This document shows positions 7,645 to 20,002 of a DNA stretch of 64,000 bases, piece by piece. The DNA is from Mycobacterium kiyosense (GTDB lineage Bacteria > Actinomycetota > Actinomycetes > Mycobacteriales > Mycobacteriaceae): the NCBI GenBank assembly GCA_021654635.1, contig AP025179.1:2976001-3040000 (forward strand), in the 5' to 3' direction. The first letter of the stretch is position 1; each line of letters starts with the position of its first letter. Below the pieces are notes generated by a model, which worked only from the letters and a program-made list of their open reading frames with translations, did not search any database and was not told where the DNA came from. Made by a program: the position numbers and the translations under genes.

Positions 7645-8112
7645 CTACGCCACCGACACGATGCGGGCGACGACCTTGCCGCCGCGGCTGACCTCGATAC
7701 TCTGGCCCGCGGCCACCTGGTCGAAGTAGCGTCCGGCGCGATTCCTGAGTTCGTGCAGCGCCACCCGTTGACCGGCAACCGCCGGGATCTCATGCTGCAG
7801 TGCGTCGCCGGCTGACACGATCTGCGCCAGGATCTTGCCGCCGCGAACGACGTACAGGGTCTCGCCGGAGGCCACGCGGTCGAAGCACTGCCCGGCCCGG
7901 GTCCGCAGTTCGTCCAGCCCGACCCAGCCGCCCCGGTCCGCTGCGGTGGCGGTTCGCGCCGGGATGGGAGCCACTCTGCGGTCGCCGACCGGGACGATCC
8001 GGGCCACCAGCTTGCCGCGGCGGATGACGTCGAACGTCTCGCCCGCCGTGACGCGCTCGAGGTAGGCGCACGCGTCACTGCGGAGTTGGCCCAGTCCGAT
8101 CACTTCCGGCAT
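7645..8112 (-). CDS. triple Phd/YefM antitoxin-like domain protein, no toxin partner
   Basis: A 155-residue protein made of three tandem copies of the Phd/YefM N-terminal DNA-binding fold at residues 4-42, 64-101 and 117-154. Each repeat follows LxxLRxxAxxYhxRVxxGExhxVxRxGKxhAxIV; compare VIRRGKLVARIV, VVRGGKILAQIV and VSRGGKVVARIV. Ordinary Phd antitoxins have one such domain plus a flexible toxin-binding tail. Here the tail is missing and no VapC, Doc or RelE-like gene lies on either side. GGAG sits 8 bases before the ATG. A near-consensus promoter with a TetR-type operator in its spacer lies just upstream (8172-8202). It is probably a regulator or DNA-binding protein co-controlled with the adjacent mce operon; no function is established. 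Confidence 0.85.
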   Translation of the reverse strand: MPEVIGLGQLRSDACAYLERVTAGETFDVIRRGKLVARIVPVGDRRVAPIPARTATAADRGGWVGLDELRTRAGQCFDRVASGETLYVVRGGKILAQIVSAGDALQHEIPAVAGQRVALHELRNRAGRYFDQVAAGQSIEVSRGGKVVARIVSVA

Positions 8113-8171: not shown

Positions 8172-8202
8172 ATTATATGACTGTACGTGCGGTCAGTGTC
8201 AA
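8172..8202 (-). promoter_or_regulatory. near-consensus sigma-A promoter of the triple-Phd gene
   Basis: Read on the minus strand: TTGACA (8202-8197), a 19-bp spacer, then TATAAT (8177-8172). Both hexamers are exact consensus, unusual in mycobacteria, where -35 boxes are poorly conserved. The spacer is slightly long (19 rather than 17), which would weaken the promoter and favour tight control. The spacer is almost entirely filled by the 16-bp palindrome at 8179-8194, so a bound repressor would block RNA polymerase directly. Confidence 0.75.
8179..8194. promoter_or_regulatory. TetR-type operator, copy 4 (triple-Phd promoter)
   Basis: GACTGTACGTGCGGTC matches the palindrome shared with 18353-18368, 18550-18565 and 19381-19396; consensus rACyGTACGwrCrGTC. 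It lies between the -35 and -10 boxes of the triple-Phd promoter, ten kilobases from the tetR gene. Confidence 0.75.
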
Positions 8203-8363
8203 AACCCGTCCGGGTGAAGTCCCGGCCGGATCAGCAATACGCCGCGACGACTTCGCCCATAGTGCAATCCCGTTATCGATCAACGTTTTTCGTCATCCGG
8301 GCGCAACCGGAGGTGCGAATCCATTTGGTGGACAGACTGACTCGACGACACACCGGTGGGAAA

Positions 8364-9968
8364 CTATGCATATTCATCCCTCTGCAGTGAACCGGCTAGC
8401 AGTGCCATGGGCGGTTCAGGGCGGTGGTGCCAGCATGAACTTCCAACCGTCGTCGCCGATTCCGTTCGAATCGCCGACGGTGTACCGGACCCCGTCCGGG
8501 GCCGACCAACTCTCCGCTCTGCGGAGTGTAGACCGGAGGCGGGAAGCCCGCCAGGCGTATAGACACACGGGTTGGGTTGCTGTCCGTTGCACGTCACACT
8601 GCCCGAACCCGGCCTGGTCAACGGGTCACTGACCGGCGGAGGCGTGCCCGGCACCCGGTCGGCCGGCGCCGGGTTGAGGCCGTTGTTGACCGACGGCGCC
8701 GGTACCACCTGACCGGGTTTCACCGGCTGGTCGCACCGCGCCGCCGGTGCCGGGCAGGTCAGGATCTGGTTCGGATCGCCATACCAAGGATTGGTGCCCG
8801 CCGGCTCATAGGGCCTCGGGTCACGGCACTCGCGCGGGGTGGCGGCGCGTTTACCCGGGACGTCGACACACGGCAGGTTGCGCGCGCCGCGCACCGCGTT
8901 GGCCGGAGTGTCTTGCGGGATCTTGCAATAGATTCCGGACGGCATCGGCGCCAGGCTGGTATCGGCCGGAGACCGCCACTGGGAAGCCGGCAGGAAACCG
9001 GTCAGGCAGGGCGGGGGCTGGTTGATCGTCAGCGAAGTGCCCAGCGAGGCGTAGCCGGGAAACGCCGACGTGACCGTCTGCCCTTCGGCCGCGCCCTGCG
9101 GATAAGCGACCAGCAGCTGCTCGACGCCCTTGTGGTAGCGCTTGAGCATGTCCAGCACGATCTCGAGGTTGGCCAGCGTTCGCGGCAGCGACTCGCGGAC
9201 GTCGTCGAACACCGCGTTGACCTGATCGGCGGTCGGCGCCGCCTGGGTCAGGATGCTCTGCACGTGCTGGTCGTTTTCCGCGCTCTGGGCCGCCAGGATG
9301 TCCAGGTTGTCGGCCCACCGGTCGATCGCGTCGCGGGAGGTGACCTGGCTGTCGATGATGGGCGCGGAGTTCTCGATGATGTCGTCGACGTCGGCGAGGT
9401 TGGCCTTGAAGTCGCCGGCGATGGCCTGAGTGGCGTCCACCAGACGCTGCAGCGCGGGGCCCAGCCCGCCGACGGCTCGCGCCGTCTCGTCGAGGAGCGC
9501 GGCGATCTTGTCCTTGGGCAGCACCGCCAGCCCGCGGTTGGCGGCATCCAGGGCGGGCCCGATCTCGGTGGGTACGGTGCCCTTGGTGATGGTCTGCCCC
9601 GGCGAGAAGTATTCGTGCACACCGGTTTCGGACACCAGGTCCAGATACTGCTCGCCGACCGCCGACACCGAATGCACGTTCGCCGACGCGTCGACCGGAA
9701 TCTTGTAGCGGTCGGAAATGCTCATGGTCACCAACGCGCCCCGCTCGGTCGGCTCGACGGAGGTGACCCTGCCGATGGTCTCACCGCGATAGGTCACATT
9801 CGAGGTCCGGTACAGCCCGCCCGAGATGGGCAGGCTCGCCTTCAGGGTGTACTGGCCGATGCCGACCGCACTGGGAATCCGTAGGTAGTACCAGCCCAGC
9901 GCCACCGCGGTGACCGCGCTCAGGATGCCGAACGTGATCAACTGGCGCCAGATGAAGCGGGTCAGCAT
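8364..9968 (-). CDS. mceF: MceF-family substrate-binding protein (C-terminus frame-altered)
   Basis: Last Mce subunit of the operon: an N-terminal membrane anchor (about residues 4-26), the MCE domain (about 40-120: GGLYRTSNVTYRGETIGRV), a helical needle region and a Cys/Pro-rich tail. Mce hexamers ferry lipids across the envelope to a YrbE-MceG permease. ATG at 9968 overlaps the mceE stop by 7 bp. The last ~60 residues as read are aberrant. Two +1 insertions, at about 8541 (C/G run of 3) and 8498-8501 (run of 4), hide a normal MceF ending (VYTPQSGELVGP, DGVRYTVGDSNG, then GWKFMLAPPP) with the stop at 8416. Probably a sequencing artefact. Confidence 0.88.
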   Translation of the reverse strand: MLTRFIWRQLITFGILSAVTAVALGWYYLRIPSAVGIGQYTLKASLPISGGLYRTSNVTYRGETIGRVTSVEPTERGALVTMSISDRYKIPVDASANVHSVSAVGEQYLDLVSETGVHEYFSPGQTITKGTVPTEIGPALDAANRGLAVLPKDKIAALLDETARAVGGLGPALQRLVDATQAIAGDFKANLADVDDIIENSAPIIDSQVTSRDAIDRWADNLDILAAQSAENDQHVQSILTQAAPTADQVNAVFDDVRESLPRTLANLEIVLDMLKRYHKGVEQLLVAYPQGAAEGQTVTSAFPGYASLGTSLTINQPPPCLTGFLPASQWRSPADTSLAPMPSGIYCKIPQDTPANAVRGARNLPCVDVPGKRAATPRECRDPRPYEPAGTNPWYGDPNQILTCPAPAARCDQPVKPGQVVPAPSVNNGLNPAPADRVPGTPPPVSDPLTRPGSGSVTCNGQQPNPCVYTPGGLPASGLHSAERRVGRPRTGSGTPSAIRTESATTVGSSCWHHRPEPPMALLAGSLQRDEYA

Positions 9969-11113
9969 TGCATGTCCGCCCGCTCGACCAGCGGCCCGCC
10001 GGGGACGTCGTTGGGGTTCGGTGTGTATCGGACGTCGGGGATCATCGTTTCCGGGTCGCGACCCCACGACTGCTCGAGTGCGCGCAGCGCCCCGGAGAAG
10101 CCGGTCCCGGTCAACACCGCGTTGTCCACCGCGCTCATCGTCAAGTCCAGCGTCAACGACAAGTTGAAGTAGTCGCCGCGGAACGACTTGAACACGGCGT
10201 CGATGTCGAACGGCCGCACCAGCATCAACTTCAGGGCACGGATCAAAAACGGTGCGGCGCGGCCGAGTTCACGCAGCGGGCACTGCATCGACAGCAGATC
10301 CTGATGGAAGTCGCTCTGCGCGGCGGACAGGTGCTGGTTGGCGACCCGGCCCAGCCGGCCCGTGGCGTCGATCGCGTTGATCAACAGGTTCTGCTTATCG
10401 GCGAAATGTTTGAGCAGCGGCGGGAATTCGGTCAGGACGCGATCCACCACCTCCGCACGGCGACCCACGTATCCCAGCAGCCGATTGGTGGAATCGATTG
10501 CCCGGGTGATGTCTTCGCGCTGTTCGTCGACTCGGGCGGTGAAGGTGTCCAGTTTGCCCAGGAAGTCCCGGATCTGCCCGGCCCGGCCGTTCAGGATGTT
10601 GTAGACCTCGTTCTGCAACGCCTCGACATTCGGCACGCCGCCGCCGCGCAGGATCATCGCCAAACTCGCCAAGGTCTGCTCAGTGGTGGGGTACGTCGAC
10701 GAATTCTTCAGCGGGATGGTGTCATTCGGCCGCAACGGCTCGGGAGAAGGGTCCGGCGGCGCCGCCAACTCCAGATGCTGAGAACCCAGCAAACTGGTCT
10801 GCCCGATCCTCGCGGTGGCGTTCTTGGGTAACTTCACTCCCCTGTCCAGCTGCAGGGTGAGCGTGGCGACCCAGTTCTTCAGGTCGATCGAGCGCACCGT
10901 GCCGACGAAGACGTCGGCCACCCGGACCCGGCTGTTCGTATTGAGCGCAAGTGTGTCGGCCATCTGCACGTAGACGGTGTAGGAGCCGGGCCCGCTGCCG
11001 GGGCCGCCGGGCATCGGCACGTTCGCGATGCCCTGCCAGTTCGCGCACGACGTCAGCGCCACCACCGCCATGCCGATCAACGCCAGCTTGCGCCACACCC
11101 GGACGCCCCTCAC
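9962..11113 (-). CDS. mceE: MceE-family lipoprotein (LprN type)
   Basis: Lipid-anchored Mce subunit of 383 residues. The signal peptide carries lipobox LTSC with the modified cysteine at residue 23. The MCE domain follows (about 42-120: YTVYVQMADTLALNTNSRVRVADVFVGTV), then a long helical region. The GTG start overlaps the mceD stop in a GTGA arrangement, indicating translational coupling. Length and architecture are normal for MceE and the frame is intact. Confidence 0.92.
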   Translation of the reverse strand: MRGVRVWRKLALIGMAVVALTSCANWQGIANVPMPGGPGSGPGSYTVYVQMADTLALNTNSRVRVADVFVGTVRSIDLKNWVATLTLQLDRGVKLPKNATARIGQTSLLGSQHLELAAPPDPSPEPLRPNDTIPLKNSSTYPTTEQTLASLAMILRGGGVPNVEALQNEVYNILNGRAGQIRDFLGKLDTFTARVDEQREDITRAIDSTNRLLGYVGRRAEVVDRVLTEFPPLLKHFADKQNLLINAIDATGRLGRVANQHLSAAQSDFHQDLLSMQCPLRELGRAAPFLIRALKLMLVRPFDIDAVFKSFRGDYFNLSLTLDLTMSAVDNAVLTGTGFSGALRALEQSWGRDPETMIPDVRYTPNPNDVPGGPLVERADMQC

Positions 11114-12691
11114 GAGCCCGGCCCCCGCGGTGCGGCCACCTCGGCGGCCAGCGGCGGCCCGATCGGCGCTGGGGTCGGTGCGACCGGTCCCGGCAGCACC
11201 CCCGGCGCCGGTGGCGGCTGTGGGATCGGGACGGGCGCCTGCAGCCCGATGGGAGGCAACACCGGGTACTCGTCGTACGCGTTGGGCGGCCCGGGCGGGG
11301 TCTGCACCCCGGACGCCGGGGGTGCGATGTCCGCCGCGCCCATCAGCTCGGCCAGCGATTCAGGGGTCAACAACCCCGCCGTAACCGGGCCGACCTGCAC
11401 CCCCTGCATCCCCGGTGCGACCACCCAGCCGGGGTTGGTGTTGCGGTGGGACAGCGGACCATCGGGCACCCAGATGCCCGGCACCGTCGTGTCCTTGAAA
11501 CCGGTCGGCGGCTGCAGGCGGGGTTCGGAGTAGGCGACCTGCTTGGGCAACACCTCAGCGGTGCTGAACAGGTTGAGTCCGAACGGAAGGTAGTTGAACT
11601 TGATGGCGTCGAGAATCGGCGCCAGATACTGCGCGCAGAGTTCGGCCGAGTCTTGATAGCCCAGCCTGCTGCCGGCCTGAATCATGCTGCACATGAACTG
11701 CATTGGGTTCGCAAAGTTCGGGATCGCCGGGATGGACATGACCGCGCCGTGCGACGGGGTGGTAGATCTGGCTGAGGTTGGTCTCCAACGTCGGCAGCAC
11801 GTGCAGCGCGGTCTCCAGACCGTTGAGCGGCTCGGGCTGGACCAGGGTGGTGGTCAGGGTGTCGAGGTTGCCGATGTCGTGGGTCAGGACTTCGCGGTTC
11901 TTGGCCAGAAATGGGCGCAGCGTGGCGAGCAGGCCGTCGAATTGCTGGATGGCGTTTGCGAGGTCGCGGTCGGATCCGGTCAGTTTGTCGGTGAACCGAG
12001 CCAGGTTGGTGTTCAACGCGACGAACTGCTGGTCGTCCTTGTGCAGGGCGTTGACGAAACGCGCCAGGCTGCGCACCACGGCGAAGAAGTCGCCCCGGCC
12101 TTCGTTGAGCGCCGTCAGCGCCTGCGCCAGGCTGTTCAGTGTGGTGTTGATCTGTTCGCCCTTGCCGGCCAGCCCGTTGGAGAACGACTCGATGAGTTCA
12201 CCGAATGGGCCGCGGGGCTGCTGGGGTGTGGGACCGAGTTTGTCGATGATGTTGGCGACGCTCTCGCGCAGCTGATCCCATTCGGTGGGCACCTGGGTGC
12301 GTGTCAGCGGGATCACCGCGTTATCGGCCATGACGGGCCCGCCTTTGTAGGGCGGCTCCAGCTGGATGCTGCGCGAGGCCACCAGGGTGGGGTTCACCAC
12401 CACTGCGGTCGCGTTGGCGGGCACCTTGTACCTGTTGTTGTAGTGGAAGGTCACCTTCATCTTGTCGCCGTCTGGTTCGATGCTGTCGATCGAACCGACA
12501 CGGACACCCATGATCTGGACCTTGTCGCCCGAGTAGAGCCCGATCGCGGCGGGCAGGTAGGCGACGACGGTGTTGTTGGTCAGCTTCTGGTAGGTATGCC
12601 AGCCGAAGAAACCGGCGACCAGGGCCAGCGCGACCACCAGCGTCGTGACGGCTCGGCGCAGCCACGGGTTGCGGAAACCGAAGGCGCTCAA
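11110..12691 (-). pseudogene. mceD: MceD-family protein gene, single frameshift
   Basis: Encodes an MceD subunit of about 526 residues if repaired: a membrane anchor (AVTTLVVALALVAGFFGW), the MCE domain with SGDKVQIMGVRVGSI, a helical region, then a Pro-rich tail. The TTG start overlaps the mceC stop. One extra C in the run at about 11755-11758 breaks the frame after SQIYHP; the next frame continues with GAVMSIPAIPNFANPMQF to the stop at 11110. Total length is 3n+1, consistent with a single +1 insertion. No other lesion is visible, so a base-calling error is likely. Confidence 0.85.
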
Positions 12692-14129
12692 CTCTGGTCA
12701 CCTCTCGTGGGCCCGACGGGTGGTGGAGCCTCGACCCGGGCTCCCGGCGGCGCGTTGGGCGGTAGCGGCACCGGGGTGCCCGGGACGTCGGGCGCCGGCT
12801 CGCCCGGTCGGCCCGCGATCGGGATCCCGGGTGTGGGCGGCAGGCCGTCGGGGACCGGTGGTGACGTCTGCACGTCCAGCGGCGCCGGGAAATTGCCGCC
12901 GAACGGGCCGAGGTCGGTACCCGCGCACGGCAGCGGGTTCCCCGGTCGCGGCAGGGCGTCCGCTGCCGGGGTGTAGGAACAGGGTGTCCCGGGTGGGACC
13001 GCCGGTCCCGGATGTTCCGGCGTGCCTTCGAGCACCGGGGGCGCGGGCGGCGGCGCGCCGTTGGGGAACCGGGTGCCGTTGGGGTCGGGGAAGCGGAACG
13101 CGGGCAGGCCGGCGTCACGCCAGAACTCTTCGGGGTCGACTCCGCGTTTCTTGAACGCGGCGTCGACGAACGGCTGCAGCATCCAGTACGGCAGCAGATT
13201 GGACAGGACGATCTTGAAGTACGGCCCCGACGCGACGGATTCCCCCAGCGATGCGGCGAATTGACTTACGTACGTGAGGGTTTGAGCCAAGTCGTCTTTG
13301 CGCGCCACCAACAGGTCGCTGAGGGTGTGCAACTGCTCCAGGACGGAATTCAGGTTCGGGTTGTCATTGATGAAGCCCTGCACCTGAGCCGAGAAAGCCG
13401 AAATGTTGTGCAGCAAACCGTCGATGGCCCGGCCGCGTTCGTTGAACGCCGCCAGCAGCGTCTTGGCGTTGACCAGCAGTCGGTCGACCTGTTGGCTGCG
13501 GTCACCGAGCACCGCGGCCACCTGGTTGGCCTGCGCCAGCAGGTGCTTGATCTGCTCGTCGCGCTTGCCGACCGTGTCGGAGAACCTGGCCACCCCCGTC
13601 CAGGGCGGCGCTGAGATGTGGATAGGTCTGATTGATGGTGTCCGACAAGACGTTCAGCGATCGCTTGACCGTGTCGATGTCCCAGCCGGTAGCCGCGTTG
13701 GTGACGTCGAAAGCCGCGTCGTAGAGCTGATAGGGGGGTGGTGGTCTGCCCCAGTGGCAGCACGCCGCCGGGCTGCAGTGTCCGGGTTCCCCGCGGCTCG
13801 ATCTCGAGCACCTTCTTACCCAGGATGGTGTCGGTCTTGATGGTGAGCCGACTCTCGGTGCCGATGGTGTGGGCGCCGATCGAGAACTTGACCCGCACGT
13901 GGTCGCCGTCGATGTCGAGCCCTTGCACGGTGCCGACATTCACGCCGGTGATGCGTACCTTGTCGTTCTTGTTCAACTGCCCGGTGTCGGTGAACTGCCC
14001 GTAATAGGCGGGCGAGGCGAACATCATCGGGATACTGGTGAAGCTCTGGCCGACGGCGACCACCAGCACCAGCACGGCGATACCCATCAGGCCGACGCGA
14101 TGGCGGTTGAACTCTTTGAGCGTTCTCAT
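12688..14129 (-). pseudogene. mceC: MceC-family protein gene, two frameshifts
   Basis: Encodes an MceC subunit of about 479 residues if repaired. Starts MRTLKEFNRHRVGLMG with a membrane anchor, then the MCE domain (FTDTGQLNKNDKVRITGVNVG), helical needle segments and a Pro/Gly-rich tail. ATG overlaps the mceB stop (ATGA). Two +1 insertions break it: the G/C run of six at 13733-13738 (after LGQTTTP) and the run of five at 13592-13596 (before ARFSDTVGKR). The intervening frame reads YQLYDAAFDVTNAATGWDID. Total length 3n+2 agrees with two insertions. Confidence 0.85.
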
Positions 14130-15166
14130 TGCGGCGTGCACCTGCCGGTGGGCTGCTTCCAGATCTTGACCGTGCGGACCGGGCCGCCGGCCTGCAGACC
14201 GTTCCACTTGATCTGCAGGTCGCAGACGTAGAAGTTCACCCAGTCGCCGTAGAGGCCGATGCTGCGGCCGATCAGGTTGAGCGCGGTGGGAGTCTTGTGG
14301 ATCAGATCGTTGAGCTGTTCGCGTTGGTCGATCAGCGGTTGTTGCAGCGCCTGCAGGTAGCCGATCTCCTTGTGCAACAACGTGCGATTGTCCGACAGCA
14401 GATCGGCGACGGTTCCCGCGGCGTTGCTGAGCTCCGCCACCCCGGTGGCCAGCGGATCGGCGTGGTTGCTCAGCCCGGTGATCAACCGCTCGAAGTTGTC
14501 GATAACGCCGTCGAACTCCTGGCGATGCCGAACGGTGGTGTCCAGCACGATGTTCAGGTTCTTGACCACCTCGCCGATCGCCTCGTCGCGTTCGGCGATA
14601 TGCGCGGTCAGGCGCGCGGTCTGGTCGAGGACGTCGTTGATGGTGCCACCCTGCCCCTGGAACACCGTGACGATCGCCGAGGCGATGGTGTTGACCTTGT
14701 TGGGTTCGAGCGCTCGGAACAGCGGCTTGAAACCGCCGATCAACGCGTCGAGGTCCAGGGCGGGGGCCGTCCGGGCCAGCGGGATGAACCCGCCGGGCGG
14801 CAGCACCCGGTCAGCGCCGTCCCCCTCGCCGCGTTTGAGCTCCACGAACCGGTTGCCGAGCAAATCGAGGTAACGGATCTGCGCGGTGGTGGACTGGTAC
14901 AACGGCACCGAGCGGTTGACGTCGAAGTCCACCAGGACGCGCCGGCCGTCGTCGACCAGTCGGATGGCCTTGACTTTGCCGACCTCCACCCCCGAGGCGC
15001 GCACGAACTGGCCGTTGCGCAGACCGCTGCCGTTGCTGAACTCGGCGGTGTAGCTGTTGGTGCGGTTGAAGCGCATCTGGGCGAACACCACGACGATCGA
15101 CGCGGTGATGAGGAACAGCACCAACGAGACGATGCCGAGCTTGATGGCGCTACCGGTGATCTTCAT
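14126..15166 (-). CDS. mceB: MceB-family substrate-binding protein
   Basis: Mce subunit of 346 residues with an N-terminal membrane anchor (about 9-30: LGIVSLVLFLITASIVVVFA), the MCE domain (about 38-115, containing SGLRNGQFVRASGVEVGKV and LDLLGNRFVELKRG), a helical region, and a Cys near each end of the tail (YVCDLQ and GRCTPQ). ATG overlaps the mceA stop as ATGA, and its own stop overlaps mceC likewise. Frame intact. Confidence 0.92.
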   Translation of the reverse strand: MKITGSAIKLGIVSLVLFLITASIVVVFAQMRFNRTNSYTAEFSNGSGLRNGQFVRASGVEVGKVKAIRLVDDGRRVLVDFDVNRSVPLYQSTTAQIRYLDLLGNRFVELKRGEGDGADRVLPPGGFIPLARTAPALDLDALIGGFKPLFRALEPNKVNTIASAIVTVFQGQGGTINDVLDQTARLTAHIAERDEAIGEVVKNLNIVLDTTVRHRQEFDGVIDNFERLITGLSNHADPLATGVAELSNAAGTVADLLSDNRTLLHKEIGYLQALQQPLIDQREQLNDLIHKTPTALNLIGRSIGLYGDWVNFYVCDLQIKWNGLQAGGPVRTVKIWKQPTGRCTPQ

Positions 15167-16470
15167 GGGTTGATCGTGTTGTCCCCGACTTGACGGCCCC
15201 ACACGTATTCGATTGCGTACGGCGAGCCGGTGTCCAAGTGGTTGTACGGCGCGAGGCTGGCACCGGTGTCGACCACCAGGCTCGGTGCCGGCCACAGGTC
15301 GTGCGTGATGGGTTGCCAGCAGCCCGGCGCTCCGCCGGGGCCGCCGCGTGCGTTCACCCGCGGCAGATTGTCCGGGTAGACATAGGGATTGGGCGCGCCG
15401 CCCACCACCCCGGCGAGTCCCAGCAGACCCTGGCTGAGCACCGCTCCGGTCAGTCCGGGCAGCGTCAGGATGCCACCCAGCCCCGACGTCAGTTCGGTCA
15501 TGGTCTTCAGTCCGTAACCGTTGCCGCCGCCGGTCGTCTCGTAGGCCGCGGGTTCGGCGTCGTGGTAATTGCGGATGGTGCAGAAGAATTCGGGGCTGTA
15601 GGTGTCGAGTAGTTGCGCGGTGGGCACCAGGTCGGCGAGTCCCCGCTGCAGATAGGGTCCGCCGCGGGTGAAGATGTCTTCGCCGGTGTTGCCCAACCCG
15701 GCCGCGGACAGCAATGCGGCATCCAGTTCGGCTTCCTGGCGGTGCAGCGTGCGTGCGGTGACCACCGCGTGGTCCAGGGCCTCGAGCAGATGCGGCGCGG
15801 CATCGGCATAGATGTCAGCCAGGGCCGCGAATTGCTGAATGTCGCGGCGGATCCGCGGCATTCGCGGGTTGACGTCGTCGAGGATGGCGTTGGCGTTGAC
15901 GATCGACTGGCCGAACTTCTCCCCCAGCCCGGTCAGGGCCTGCGCGGCGGCGGACAACGTCAGGTTCAGCTTGACCGGGTCGACCTTCTCCGCAATCGAG
16001 GTGAGCGTCTCGAACAACGTGTTGAACTCGGTCGTCACCGATCGTGCGTCGATCACGTGCTCCGGCGTAATGCGCTGCGGCGTCGGGTCTTTCGGTGAGG
16101 TCAGCGATACATACTTGTTGCCGAAGACGGTGGTGGCCCTGATGTTGGCGTCCACGTTGGCCGGAATCAGCCGGAGGTAATCCGGGTTGACGTCCAGCAC
16201 GAACTTGGCCACCGGCACGCCGTCGCGCTGCACTTCCGAGATATTGGCGACCCGGCCGATCTCCACCCCGTTGTAGGTGACCTTCGATCCCGGATCCATC
16301 ACCAGCCCGGTCCGTGGAGCCAGGAGCGTCAGGGCGGTCTTGGGGGTGAACCGGCCGCGGAACTGGAAGTACACGAACGCCAGCACCGCCGCGAAGACCA
16401 ACAGGAACACCACGGCCGCCGTCTTGTACGGCGGGATGCGCGGCGCGTTCTCCTTGAACGGGGTTGTCAT
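15163..16470 (-). CDS. mceA: MceA-family substrate-binding protein
   Basis: First Mce subunit, 435 residues. N-terminal anchor (about 15-37), MCE domain (about 42-125: LLAPRTGLVMDPGSKVTYNGVEIGRV and TTVFGNKYVSLTSPKDP), then the helical region (NTLFETLTSIAEKVDPVKLN) and a Gly/Pro-rich C-terminus. It begins 4 bp after the yrbEB stop. The substrate of this Mce system cannot be read from sequence; it is not at a position occupied by an mce operon in M. tuberculosis. Confidence 0.93.
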   Translation of the reverse strand: MTTPFKENAPRIPPYKTAAVVFLLVFAAVLAFVYFQFRGRFTPKTALTLLAPRTGLVMDPGSKVTYNGVEIGRVANISEVQRDGVPVAKFVLDVNPDYLRLIPANVDANIRATTVFGNKYVSLTSPKDPTPQRITPEHVIDARSVTTEFNTLFETLTSIAEKVDPVKLNLTLSAAAQALTGLGEKFGQSIVNANAILDDVNPRMPRIRRDIQQFAALADIYADAAPHLLEALDHAVVTARTLHRQEAELDAALLSAAGLGNTGEDIFTRGGPYLQRGLADLVPTAQLLDTYSPEFFCTIRNYHDAEPAAYETTGGGNGYGLKTMTELTSGLGGILTLPGLTGAVLSQGLLGLAGVVGGAPNPYVYPDNLPRVNARGGPGGAPGCWQPITHDLWPAPSLVVDTGASLAPYNHLDTGSPYAIEYVWGRQVGDNTINP

Positions 16471-16474
16471 TCGG

Positions 16475-17347
16475 CTATCCGGTCAGGTTGAAGTTCGGGT
16501 TCTTGCCGTAGACCGCCATCGCGGTCAGGACGACGACGACCACGATGGTGATCAGCGACAGCCGCATCGACCGGCCGACCGCCTCGCCGACGCCGACCGG
16601 CCCGCCGTGGGCGGTGTAGCCGTAGTAGGAGTGGGTGGTCATCACGACCACCGCGACCAGGATGACTTCGGCGAACGACCAGCCCACGTCGTTGAGGCGC
16701 AGGAAGGTGTGGAAGTAGTGGTTGTAGGTGCCGGCGGACTGGCCGTACAGAAAAACGGTGGTCAGCTGCGCGGACAGGAAGGCAAGGGTGATCGCCAACC
16801 CGTAGAGCGGGATGATGACGATCAGGCCCGCCACCACTCGGGTGGACGCCAGGTAGGCGATGGAGCGGATACTCATCACCTCCAGCGCGTCGATCTCCTC
16901 GCTGATGCGCATGGCGCCCAGTTCGGCGGTGGCCCCGGCGCCGACCGTGGCGGCCAATGCCTGCCCGGCGGCCACCGGCGCCACGAACCGCACGTTGACC
17001 ATCGCGGCCAGGAAGCCGGTGAACGCCTCGACGCCGATGTTGCCCAGCGACGCGAATCCCTGGATGGCGACCAGCGATCCGGCGGACAGGGTGATGAAGC
17101 CGACGATGGCCGCGGTGCCGCCCGCCACGGCCATCGCGCCGGTGCCCATCCCCATCTGGGCGACCATGCGCACCAGCTCCCGGCGGTAGCGGTGCAGGGC
17201 GAATGGAATCTGGCCGACCGCGGTGACCGCGAACCAGATCAACTGCCCGATCTCGAGCAGCAGCCGGGCCGGGGCGTCGCCGTACCGTCCTAGGTTGGCC
17301 CGCAGGAAGCGGCCGCGTGAGATGGCGGCCACGGAATGCCCGGCCAT
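16475..17347 (-). CDS. yrbEB: YrbEB-type Mce permease (MlaE family)
   Basis: Integral membrane permease of the MlaE/YrbE family, half of the inner-membrane channel through which the Mce tunnel passes lipid, energised by the separately encoded ATPase MceG. About 290 residues with five to six helices and the family signature LGAMRISEEIDALEVM facing the ATPase. ATG at 17347 lies 1 bp past the yrbEA stop; a GTG at 17374 is possible but overlaps yrbEA. Confidence 0.93.
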   Translation of the reverse strand: MAGHSVAAISRGRFLRANLGRYGDAPARLLLEIGQLIWFAVTAVGQIPFALHRYRRELVRMVAQMGMGTGAMAVAGGTAAIVGFITLSAGSLVAIQGFASLGNIGVEAFTGFLAAMVNVRFVAPVAAGQALAATVGAGATAELGAMRISEEIDALEVMSIRSIAYLASTRVVAGLIVIIPLYGLAITLAFLSAQLTTVFLYGQSAGTYNHYFHTFLRLNDVGWSFAEVILVAVVVMTTHSYYGYTAHGGPVGVGEAVGRSMRLSLITIVVVVVLTAMAVYGKNPNFNLTG

Positions 17348-17348
17348 C

Positions 17349-18143
17349 TCAGCGTCCCGTCCCGAACCGGACACCGATGGTGGTCAGCGCCGCGTTGACG
17401 GCGAACAGTGCGATGAAGCACAGCACCACGGTCTCGTTGACCGCGGTGCCCAGACCTTTGGACCCGCCCTTGACGATCAGTCCGCGGTAACAACCGACCA
17501 GGCCGGCGATGAGCCCAAAGGTGGCGGCCTTGATGTTGGCGATCACCACCTCGGGCAGGCCGGTGAGTGCGGTCAGTGTGGACAGGTAGGCACCGCTCGA
17601 AACGTTCTGCAGGTACACGCTGAACAGGTAGCCGCCGCCCAGCCCGACGGCGATCACCAGGCCGTTGAGCAGCACCGCGACCAGCGTGGAGGCGACCACA
17701 CGGGGTACCACCAGCCGGTGGATCGGGTCGATGCCCAGCACCTCGAGCGCATCGATCTCTTCGCGGATGGTCCGGGCGCCCAGGTCGGCGCAGATCGCGG
17801 TTCCCCCGGCCCCGGCGACCACCAGCACGGTCACGATCGGGCCGAGTTGGGTGACCGCCCCGATGCCGGCGCCGGCGCCGGAGACGTCGGCGGCGCCGAA
17901 CTCGGCGAGCAGGACGTTGAGCGTGAAGATGAGCAGCACGGTTTCCGGGATGGACACCGCGATGGTGGGCAGCAGCGACACCCGCATGAGAAACCAGCCG
18001 GTCCAGATGAACTCGCGCCATTCGAACGGCCGCCGCAGCGCCTTGGCGGTCAGCACAGACATTCGGAAGAATCCGCCGGCGACTTCGGTGCCCGGCCTGA
18101 TCTTGTTGCTCAGTCGGCCGACGACGCTGCTCGATGCGGTCAT
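17349..18143 (-). CDS. yrbEA: YrbEA-type Mce permease (MlaE family)
   Basis: First gene of the eight-gene mce operon; 264-residue MlaE-family permease with about five helices and the coupling signature LGARTIREEIDALEVLGIDP. Pairs with YrbEB to form the ABC permease of the Mce lipid importer. The ATG at 18143 is preceded by a 543-bp intergenic region holding two copies of the TetR-type operator, so transcription of the whole operon is probably set by the upstream repressor. Confidence 0.93.
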   Translation of the reverse strand: MTASSSVVGRLSNKIRPGTEVAGGFFRMSVLTAKALRRPFEWREFIWTGWFLMRVSLLPTIAVSIPETVLLIFTLNVLLAEFGAADVSGAGAGIGAVTQLGPIVTVLVVAGAGGTAICADLGARTIREEIDALEVLGIDPIHRLVVPRVVASTLVAVLLNGLVIAVGLGGGYLFSVYLQNVSSGAYLSTLTALTGLPEVVIANIKAATFGLIAGLVGCYRGLIVKGGSKGLGTAVNETVVLCFIALFAVNAALTTIGVRFGTGR

Positions 18144-18352
18144 CGACGCGGCCCCCGGCCCGATGATTTCTGACTACGCGAGAATTGTTGAGCCATCCAG
18201 CTTTTGGACGCCGCAGCGGAGGCAGACGAGTGCGGGTGCACCGGGTTGGCGCACCGTGAGCGGACCCGGTCGCAGTCGCAATCGGGGGTTGCCGTCCCCA
18301 CCCGCCGGCTGCACGCCGCCCGTGTTTGCGCCACCGGGCAACTATTGCATCA

Positions 18353-18368
18353 GACCGTACGTGCAGTC
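18353..18368. promoter_or_regulatory. TetR-type operator, copy 3 (mce operon)
   Basis: GACCGTACGTGCAGTC, 210 bp upstream of yrbEA. It differs from the 8179-8194 copy at only two positions. It overlaps a minus-strand TTGACT, the likely -35 element of the mce promoter. Confidence 0.75.
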
Positions 18369-18549
18369 AATTACAAACGTGGATTTCAAATAATGCACGG
18401 TCACCCGCACGCCGGTTTGAAGACCGGCCGATGCGCCGGCATGCCCGGCAATGCAACGGGCACTTAGGTTTTTGTCAGGCTTCCGGGCGGTCTGTCGCCC
18501 AGTTGAACACGTGCCGCGCAATGGCCCGGCTCCGCGGACGTCGGTTAGA

Positions 18550-18565
18550 TACTGTACGTACAGTC
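18550..18565. promoter_or_regulatory. TetR-type operator, copy 2 (mce operon, distal)
   Basis: TACTGTACGTACAGTC; its inner 14 bases, ACTGTACGTACAGT, are a perfect palindrome, the most symmetrical of the four copies. It lies 197 bp upstream of copy 3, between tetR and yrbEA, and could allow looping or control of a second promoter. Confidence 0.75.
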
Positions 18566-18686
18566 AAGAGTTCTGGTGCGTGTGGAGGCGCAGCAAAGTT
18601 TCCGGGTGTGCGCACGGCAGCAGCGGCGCACCGGCTGCAAGCGGTCAGCTCAACGTACTCTGGCGCATGACATTTGGGCCTTGCGT

Positions 18687-19358
18687 TCAGGCCGGCGCGC
18701 CTATCGCCGCGGTGAGGCATTCGCGCACCACCGAGACGAGATCCGCCGCCGGGTCCGCCCACTTGCTCAAACCCAGGCGATCGAGCAGCAGCCCGCCGAG
18801 AAAAACGTCGACGAACGCCGCACCCACCTGTTCGGGCGCCCGAGCCTCGGCCGGGTTGAACCAGACCCACATCCACTCCAGCGAGCCCCACAGTTGCAAT
18901 GCGGCTAGTTCGACGTCGACGCCGCGAAACACCCCGACCTGCACCCCGCTTCGGATTTCGTCCACGGTGAGCGCCTGCAACTGCTGACGCAACTTACGCA
19001 CCTGCTCCATGGCGGGATCGTCGAACAATTGCACCACTTCCCGCTGGCTCGCCACGGTCGAGTGCCGGGCGATCACGTGCAACAGCGCCGAGGTGTAGAT
19101 GATCGCGGCAATGCGTTCGTGCGGCGCGGCGAGTCGGTCCCACACCATCCGCAGCACGTCGAGCTGGCGGGCCAGGTGCGTTTCTTCCAGTTCGCGCAGC
19201 ATCTGCGCCTTGGTCCCGAAATGATGGACGATGGTGCCTTTGGACATGCCGAGCTCATCTGCGATGTCGCCGATATTCGTTCTGTCGTAGCCACGTTCGG
19301 CCACACAGCGGACAAACGCGTCGAGGATCTCGCCACGTCGGCCGGGCGATCTAGGCAT
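18687..19358 (-). CDS. TetR/AcrR-family repressor of the mce block
   Basis: DNA-binding repressor of 223 residues. The N-terminal helix-turn-helix (about 8-55) reads RRGEILDAFVRCVAERGYDRTNIGDIADELGMSKGTIVHHFGTKAQML in segments, typical of TetR. The C-terminal all-helical ligand domain contains LWGSLEWMWVWFNPAEA, rich in Trp and suited to a hydrophobic ligand. The start at 19358 has AAGG 8 bases upstream; longer frames run through the operator and are rejected. It lies directly upstream of the mce operon on the same strand. Its own promoter carries one operator copy, so autorepression and control of mce and the triple-Phd gene are inferred. It is much shorter than the duplicated Mce3R. Confidence 0.88.
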   Translation of the reverse strand: MPRSPGRRGEILDAFVRCVAERGYDRTNIGDIADELGMSKGTIVHHFGTKAQMLRELEETHLARQLDVLRMVWDRLAAPHERIAAIIYTSALLHVIARHSTVASQREVVQLFDDPAMEQVRKLRQQLQALTVDEIRSGVQVGVFRGVDVELAALQLWGSLEWMWVWFNPAEARAPEQVGAAFVDVFLGGLLLDRLGLSKWADPAADLVSVVRECLTAAIGAPA

Positions 19359-19684
19359 CTCAAAACCTTTGGAGTCAACTAACCGTACGAACGGTCTATC
19401 ATAACTGCGCCTGGTGGGGAAGCCCGGAATCGACACCCCCCGGGAATCGCGCGTCTGAATCGCGCGCCGAGTACGCCGGCGTGCAGCCGCGCCCGCGGCT
19501 GCGCCCAGCGCCGACCCTAAAATGGTTGCAGCAAAAAGGATTACGTGTTGTTGACCGTACGACGACCTGCTCGCGAGACGCCGTTGCAAGATTCAGACTC
19601 CCGACGGCCGCTAACGCCCGGCTGCCCGAAGTCGCTGGCGAACGCGGGACGCTCAGGGCGACTATCCGCCCGGCGCCCCCCGGC
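19359..19684. other. tetR promoter region
   Basis: No supported gene. Contains the tetR -10 and operator (19381-19403) and a partial copy of the palindrome (left half GACCGTACG at 19553-19561, right half degenerate). Confidence 0.5.
19381..19403 (-). promoter_or_regulatory. tetR promoter -10 and TetR-type operator, copy 1
   Basis: The operator AACCGTACGAACGGTC (19381-19396; minus strand GACCGTTCGTACGGTT) is immediately downstream of a minus-strand -10 box TATGAT (19403-19398). It ends 23 bp before the tetR start codon. A bound repressor would cover the transcription start, the standard layout of TetR autoregulation. Confidence 0.75.
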
Positions 19685-20002
19685 TCACAGGGCCTTCAAC
19701 GGCTTGCGGCAGGCGCGTCCTTCGGGCGCGGTGACGACATACATGTTCGCCCCGGGGGCCGACTTGATCTCGCCGGCGGTGTACATGGTCATCAGTTCTC
19801 TGCCGTCGGAGTCGACGACACACACGTAGGTGTCGGTCTCAGGGTCGTACTCGAAGTGGTCCCAGGCCAGGACGAACGCCAGGCAGTTTCCGTCCCGGTC
19901 GGCAACGACCAGTTTGTGGGTGCCTGACTCCTTCAACAATTGCGCATCCTGCTCGCGCTGTTGGGGAACTCCGTTGTTGCGAACCTTCACGCTCTCTAGC
20001 AT
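19685..20002 (-). CDS. hypothetical 105-residue protein
   Basis: Not recognised. Translation looks genuine: AAGGGAGTG lies 9 bases before the ATG, composition is balanced, and codon use matches the neighbours. The product is soluble, begins MLESVKVRNNGVPQQREQDA, and has a central acidic beta-rich part (VVADRDGNCLAFVLAWDHFEYDPETDTYV) ending in a basic tail. No signal peptide or membrane segment. It stands alone between the tetR promoter and the amidohydrolase gene on the same strand. Confidence 0.7.
   Translation of the reverse strand: MLESVKVRNNGVPQQREQDAQLLKESGTHKLVVADRDGNCLAFVLAWDHFEYDPETDTYVCVVDSDGRELMTMYTAGEIKSAPGANMYVVTAPEGRACRKPLKAL

Follow-up and report, generated by a model that had tools for sequence, protein, structure and literature searches.

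The stretch of DNA analysed here, 64,000 nucleotides of the Mycobacterium kiyosense genome (contig AP025179.1, positions 2,976,001 to 3,040,000) and referred to as the window, carries on its minus strand a TetR-family repressor gene, a mce operon and the gene of a small protein built of three Phd repeats, and copies of a single palindrome are found ahead of all three. The repressor gene, tetR (18687..19358 in window coordinates), encodes 223 amino acids with the Pfam domains TetR_N (E 3.3e-15; one match only) and TetR_C_24 (E 4.4e-16), each of which passes the cut-off. It is followed by yrbEA (17349..18143) and yrbEB (16475..17374, an open frame whose true start may be internal), which encode MlaE-type permeases (Pfam MlaE), and by mceA to mceF (8364..16470; NCBIfam TIGR00996). 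Two yrbE genes followed by six mce genes constitute the organisation expected of a mce operon. The last gene of the block, phd (7645..8112), encodes a protein of 155 residues assigned to Pfam PhdYeFM_antitox, with repeats encoded at 7987..8106 (residues 3-42), 7810..7926 (residues 63-101) and 7648..7767 (residues 116-155).

A preliminary description of this DNA had reported four copies of a 16-mer palindrome in the block, and all four are present. Three of them are exact. One lies in the tetR promoter (18-mer 19380..19397, 16-mer 19381-19396), 21 base pairs (bp) 5' of the ATG and immediately behind a TATGAT box. Another is the proximal of two copies ahead of yrbEA (16-mer 18353-18368, in a minus-strand block at 18341..18370) and overlaps a promoter-like TTGACT ... 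AATAGT block. The third (18-mer 8178-8195, 16-mer 8179-8194) belongs to a promoter-operator ahead of phd (8172..8203, minus strand), where it stands together with TTGACA and TATAAT. The distal yrbEA copy (18-mer 18549..18566, 16-mer 18550-18565) has one mismatch to the 16-mer. Within the window matches with up to two mismatches are found at these four places only. With three mismatches there are 13 matches against a mean of 10.03 in shuffled sequences, and 25 of 100 shuffles reach 13, which is not above chance.

In the source genome (6,346,450 bases, one contig) all three exact matches fall in the block and five places elsewhere match with one mismatch. The expectation that a genome-wide search allowing two mismatches would single out this block was not borne out, the 66 rows obtained being at background (59 with the reversed control), and comparison between species was adopted for this reason. 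The source genome taken alone is only suggestive of a regulon. A fifth half-site proposed at 19553 is an 8-mer, GACCGTAC, that shows no conservation in relatives and has to be dropped. In the 200 bp 5' of tetR no second separate site agreeing at 13 or more of 18 positions was found in the other genomes, with the exception of genome G106, where the second site is that of a divergent phd gene (genomes are denoted by G numbers and the loci fetched from them by L numbers).

A search with the TetR protein at an expectation value (E) of 1e-25 gave matches in 26 of 148 sampled Mycobacterium genomes. Proteins of at least 69% identity were considered orthologues, which leaves 24 genomes and excludes G034, G121 and the second copy of G106 (34-40%); a palindrome was counted as a site when at least 15 of 18 consensus positions agree. 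The comparison of related species bears out the earlier proposal. In all 24 genomes tetR precedes yrbEA and is read the same way, with a palindrome at the tetR promoter, ending 15-27 bp before the tetR start, and another ahead of yrbEA. Mean column identity is 0.99 in the tetR site and 0.71 in both of its flanks (21 of the 24 rows, excluding G106 and two rows with short flanks), 0.99 in the phd site with flanks of 0.58 and 0.56 (the 19 rows having the site), and 0.96 in the proximal yrbEA site with flanks of 0.46 and 0.80 (23 rows, G106 excluded), the flank of 0.80 being the one that holds a conserved -10-like block. The pattern RACYGNNCGTACRGTY, in which a perfect palindrome counts once per strand, gave 71 rows in the 24 genomes, 65 of them inside the block and six outside, and the reversed pattern gave eight; beyond the block the sites are not in excess. 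The 124 sampled genomes without an orthologue yielded 52 rows in 39 genomes, and among them no two separate sites lie within 15 kilobases (kb) of each other. With most matches in the block and no paired sites elsewhere, the regulon looks local.

The attachment of phd to these sites has been followed in the named genomes, which hold 31 phd loci, reduced to 30 on exclusion of L077 (a match of 33 residues). In all 30 relatives mceF is directly upstream of the triple-Phd gene. Where 76-326 bp separate the mceF stop from phd, a palindrome precedes phd (18 of 18 loci), flanked by TTGACAC and TATAMT; where the gap is 13-75 bp there is none (0 of 12), and in these genomes phd is probably read together with the mce operon. 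The window, with a gap of 251 bp and a palindrome, belongs with the former. The earlier statement that every promoter of the block carries the palindrome is thus correct for the window and does not extend to 12 of the 30 named relatives, in which phd has no palindrome of its own. G106 has a two-repeat phd that is divergent from tetR and has the same promoter-operator of its own. When two mismatches at most are allowed, the 25-mer promoter-operator TTGAYACTGACYGNNCGTACRGTCA is found a single time in each of 34 of 396 genomes, and the reversed control gives none. Thirty of these 34 places were examined (leaving out G031, G112, G522 and G653), and all 30 fall in this regulon: 28 between mceF and phd, that of G106 between tetR and phd, and that of G591, with two mismatches, between tetR and yrbEA. 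That phd has kept its tie to this control in each of three gene orders speaks for selection on co-regulation. In L223 and L226 phd matches the query over about two repeats, and the repeat number seems to be variable within the clade.

The attribution of all the sites to one regulator, most simply the adjacent TetR protein, is supported by the sequence comparisons, as the sites accompany the TetR orthologue in 24 of 24 genomes and 65 of the 71 pattern matches are in the block. A regulator encoded elsewhere in the genome would have numerous candidates to draw upon, since a first look gives 60 to 136 TetR-like proteins per orthologue genome (57 in G015), but the constant company of the adjacent tetR, and the fact that the best-conserved site is in its own promoter, make such a regulator very improbable. 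That the palindromes are chance or unrelated repeats would fit the background counts of the window and the genome with two to three mismatches; the conservation of the sites amid poorly conserved flanks, and the occurrence of the 25-mer in 34 genomes against none for the reversed control, render this explanation almost negligible. Binding of the palindrome by the Phd protein, alone or with TetR, has more in its favour. The palindrome contains TGTAC-GTACA, and the cores recognised by YefM-type antitoxins are TGTACA; of the YefM-like arginines, those of repeats 1 and 3 are invariant, as is one of the pair in repeat 2. We nevertheless regard it as improbable. G070 and G116 keep tetR, the operon and the sites, and a search at E 1e-5 finds no Phd homologue in them (the contig of G015 stops within mceF), Phd relatives in other mce operons have no site of at least 15 of 18 positions in the fetched stretches of L153, L159, L160, L161, L162, L166, L172, L198, L199 and L202, and phd itself lacks the palindrome in the 12 relatives described above. 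The sites without Phd and the Phd relatives without sites together indicate TetR as the binder.

Besides the background level of the two-mismatch genome search, some observations weigh against a local regulon under this TetR. A second yrbEA site of at least 15 of 18 positions is present in only 13 of the 24 genomes, and the pattern RACYGNNCGTACRGTY was tuned on the same sites that it counts. Near-perfect palindromes stand alone in two genomes without this TetR, at G087:C1:486106 (L155 8106) and G091:C1:482440 (L154 8440), with no match to tetR, mce or phd in the 17 kb fetched around each. G075 has a phd gene with the promoter-operator (L152 966-1483, split over two frames), and neither a TetR of more than 30% identity over most of its length nor the remainder of the operon was found in it; phd and its site in a genome where no close TetR was found favour the Phd protein as binder. 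The contig of G075 starts inside mceF, so that the absence of TetR may be an assembly gap, and its split phd perhaps reflects decay after loss of the regulator or an assembly fault. On balance, we consider it very probable, judging from sequence, that tetR, the mce operon and phd form a local regulon under an autorepressing TetR.

A lone palindrome is also present in G034. A second TetR gene, whose product has 40% identity, is divergent from a yrbEA of 73% identity in L120 (G121) and L122 (G106); this is another mce operon under predicted TetR control, in which the palindrome is not at full strength.

The description of the phd product as a triple Phd protein has been confirmed. The N-terminal DNA-binding fold of Phd is recognised above cut-off by Pfam and NCBIfam, and an AlphaFold2 model computed from 18 sequences contains three units, each a beta-alpha-alpha-beta-beta repeat. 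The model has a mean predicted local distance difference test score of 77.2 and a predicted template modelling (TM) score of 0.58, with ten-residue means of mostly 80-91 in the repeats and 41-65 in the linkers. A fold search with the model gave nothing at E 0.001 or better; its best sensible match is VapB46 (E 0.0062), and the sensible matches are to single Phd domains, single repeats resembling the N-terminal domain of VapB46 (TM by target 0.92) and P1 Phd (0.75). Long matches to IMPDH and CBS proteins were dismissed on account of root mean square deviations of 12-17. Among solved structures, proteins of the type of VapB46 (E 0.0048) and of 3dbo, which we take to be VapB5 (E 0.07), are nearest in sequence. 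R11, R31, R70, R123 and R143 do not vary among the 18 aligned sequences and, going by the YefM residue numbers, presumably correspond to the operator-binding arginines of that protein. YefM has been described to bind TGTACA palindromes via two conserved N-terminal arginines (PMC3920265).

The window protein stops at the third repeat and has no C-terminal toxin-binding part. Several relatives extend about 10 residues past repeat 3 and one, P0071, about 45, and most have short tails at most. Its neighbours are mceF and a SnoaL-like gene, with no space for a toxin gene between. For one neighbour in each of 10 relatives no toxin family was matched, two of them matching no family whatever.

A search with the Phd protein in the 148 genomes at E 1e-5 gave 45 rows, 20 of which are orthologues. 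Twelve loci lie outside the clade, eight of them being those of the genes that rank next by score (E 1.8e-26 to 2.2e-11) and four coming from further searches; in 10 of the 12 the Phd gene is no more than 5 kb away from mce or mce-associated genes. It follows mceF in L152, the locus of G075, and lies 1.6 kb after mceF in L199, 3.7 kb after it in L198 and 4.4 kb after it in L219; in L159 it is convergent, 2.8 kb past mceF. In L158 it stands beside tetR and yrbEA, and in L202 it is divergent, 2.1 kb from yrbEA. L161 (4535-4789) and L166 (3110-3376) encode one-repeat Phd proteins 0.5-0.6 kb ahead of the yrbEA of another operon, with a different TetR gene near. L172, on plasmid pMYCCH.01 (NC_018022.1) of Mycolicibacterium chubuense NBB4, has the gene 1.6 kb after mce-associated genes. 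In L153 the Phd gene is at a contig end, and in L220 no mce gene was found within 9 kb of it. Compared with their counterparts in the window, the mce proteins at these places have about 25-76% identity, a spread that makes several kinds of operon likely. Ordinary single-Phd genes account for the remaining 15 rows (E 4.6e-9 to 9.5e-6), 14 of them beside a VapC-like gene and none near mce genes in stretches of 5.5-12 kb.

The plasmid locus L172 also shows a transposase-like insert (16397-18001) between the mce-associated genes and its triple-Phd gene, which is unannotated and absent from the PLSDB gene table. A different kind of PIN nuclease is annotated 11 kb from this phd. In a family-wide sample nine of 301 genomes, all of the same genus, match the Phd protein at E 1e-8, and no match at that value was found in the 30 other genera of the sample. 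Where the relatives bear a public name, it is of the antitoxin, prevent-host-death or hypothetical kind (best 120 of 367).

The relation of these proteins to toxins has two possible readings. The Phd protein could still act as an antitoxin, holding in check VapC-type toxins whose genes lie elsewhere, in which case TetR control would couple growth arrest to the supply of lipid. This possibility gains some substance from the VapB46/VapB5 type of the protein's nearest solved relatives and from the ordinary vapBC-like pairs present in the same genomes, the source genome included. Against it, VapC-like genes adjoin none of 43 Phd loci (the 12 outside the clade, the 30 named orthologues and the window), as judged by three VapC queries only, drawn from three of the control loci, compared with 14 of the 15 ordinary Phd loci; the window protein has no tail after its third repeat; and Phd genes recur beside mce operons instead of toxins. 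We therefore consider a surviving antitoxin function unlikely, though clearly less so than any of the alternatives for the binder of the palindrome. The evidence suggests that the Phd protein now serves lipid uptake and not toxin control, and most likely it is a toxin-free accessory regulator with tandem DNA-binding units that is made alongside the importer and is no longer an antitoxin. As for its actual regulatory role, the chances appear about even. We hold with similarly divided confidence the wider proposal that toxin-free Phd proteins of one to three repeats form in Mycobacterium a family of DNA-binding regulators, mce-associated and so far without a name, in which antitoxin DNA-binding domains have been freed from toxin control and recruited to lipid import; the family would be placed on several divergent mce operons and wired in this clade by a shared TetR operator that has been kept even after relocation of the gene.

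By sequence, the nearest solved relatives of the TetR protein are KstR2 (E 4.2e-20) and a fatty-acid regulator (E 8.9e-9). The ligands of KstR2 and FadR are coenzyme A (CoA) thioesters. In the mechanism that we propose, TetR (18687-19358) would bind the palindrome (T)GACYGTACGTRCRGTC(A) and, once bound, would cover or abut the promoters of tetR, of the yrbEA-mceA-F operon and of the triple-Phd gene and so repress all three. A lipid-derived ligand would release the repressor, and the example of KstR2 and FadR makes a CoA thioester formed from imported lipid the probable one, upon which the Phd protein would be produced together with the importer. The Phd protein may then bind DNA and tune mce transcription, either in a feedback loop or by linking the system to another mce operon.

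Within the mce operon, TIGR00996 is matched above cut-off by mceA, B, D, E and F, and two pieces of mceC match below it because the mceC frame is interrupted. In the source genome mceC is spread over three frames and mceD over two (11110-14141, minus strand). Of the named relatives, 23 of 24 have mceC and 25 of 25 have mceD in a single frame, the query relative counted in, and the broken frames reflect either sequencing indels or decay of the operon. The source genome has ten yrbEA-like matches of at least 39% identity, its own yrbEA counted, and hence about ten mce systems. The mceA product scores 535.6 bits against the Mce family protein of PDB 8fed, which we take to be a Mce1 protein, and 58 against Mce4A. 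Upstream of tetR, a protein of 105 residues (19685-20002, minus strand) for which no Pfam or NCBIfam family was matched is encoded in the same place in 23 of the 24 genomes, G106 being the exception.

Mce systems are the lipid importers of mycobacteria, and to our knowledge regulators are known for few of them. In many mycobacteria one TetR repressor probably controls, via one palindrome, a lipid-import operon and a toxinless antitoxin-like protein. The block would offer a compact regulon whose operator is predicted exactly, together with a family of antitoxin-like proteins that recurs next to an importer and not next to a toxin. If these Phd proteins do regulate Mce systems, many genes named antitoxin are misnamed and a new layer of control over lipid uptake is opened to testing. 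No mce-linked Phd protein is named in titles or abstract openings among the literature matches listed, in a coverage to which subscription journals are mostly external, and five 12-mers of the palindrome lead, among the matches listed, to three papers whose titles place them in other fields. The one paper met on prevent-host-death proteins in this connection concerns Leptospira. The accessible text of the mce operon survey of Casali and Riley contains no word starting with TetR, toxin or prevent (PMC1810536). A survey of mycobacterial TetR proteins sought motifs at divergent genes, and the word antitoxin is absent from its accessible text (PMC4482099); the present tetR and its neighbours do not form a divergent arrangement.

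Each Phd repeat resembles VapB46 and P1 Phd in matching the N-terminal DNA-binding domain. Unlike these two and the Phd/YefM antitoxins in general, the protein described here has three tandem repeats, no toxin tail and no VapC-like neighbour, and the Mas (mce-associated) proteins are a different protein family. Repressors of the KstR2/FadR type are the closest solved relatives of this TetR but have other targets. The nearest system in gene arrangement is Mce3R of M. tuberculosis, a TetR-family repressor encoded upstream of yrbE3A/mce3 that controls the mce3 operon and itself; it is a double TetR protein acting on 25-bp non-palindromic sites, and no Phd gene is named in the available text (PMC11667970). 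The repressor gene analysed here likewise stands upstream of a mce operon, and it differs in encoding a single TetR protein of 223 residues with palindromic sites, so that it does not belong to the Mce3R type as described there. TetR control of a mce operon is already known from Mce3R, and the association of a tandem Phd protein with mce genes is the part of the present system most worth following.

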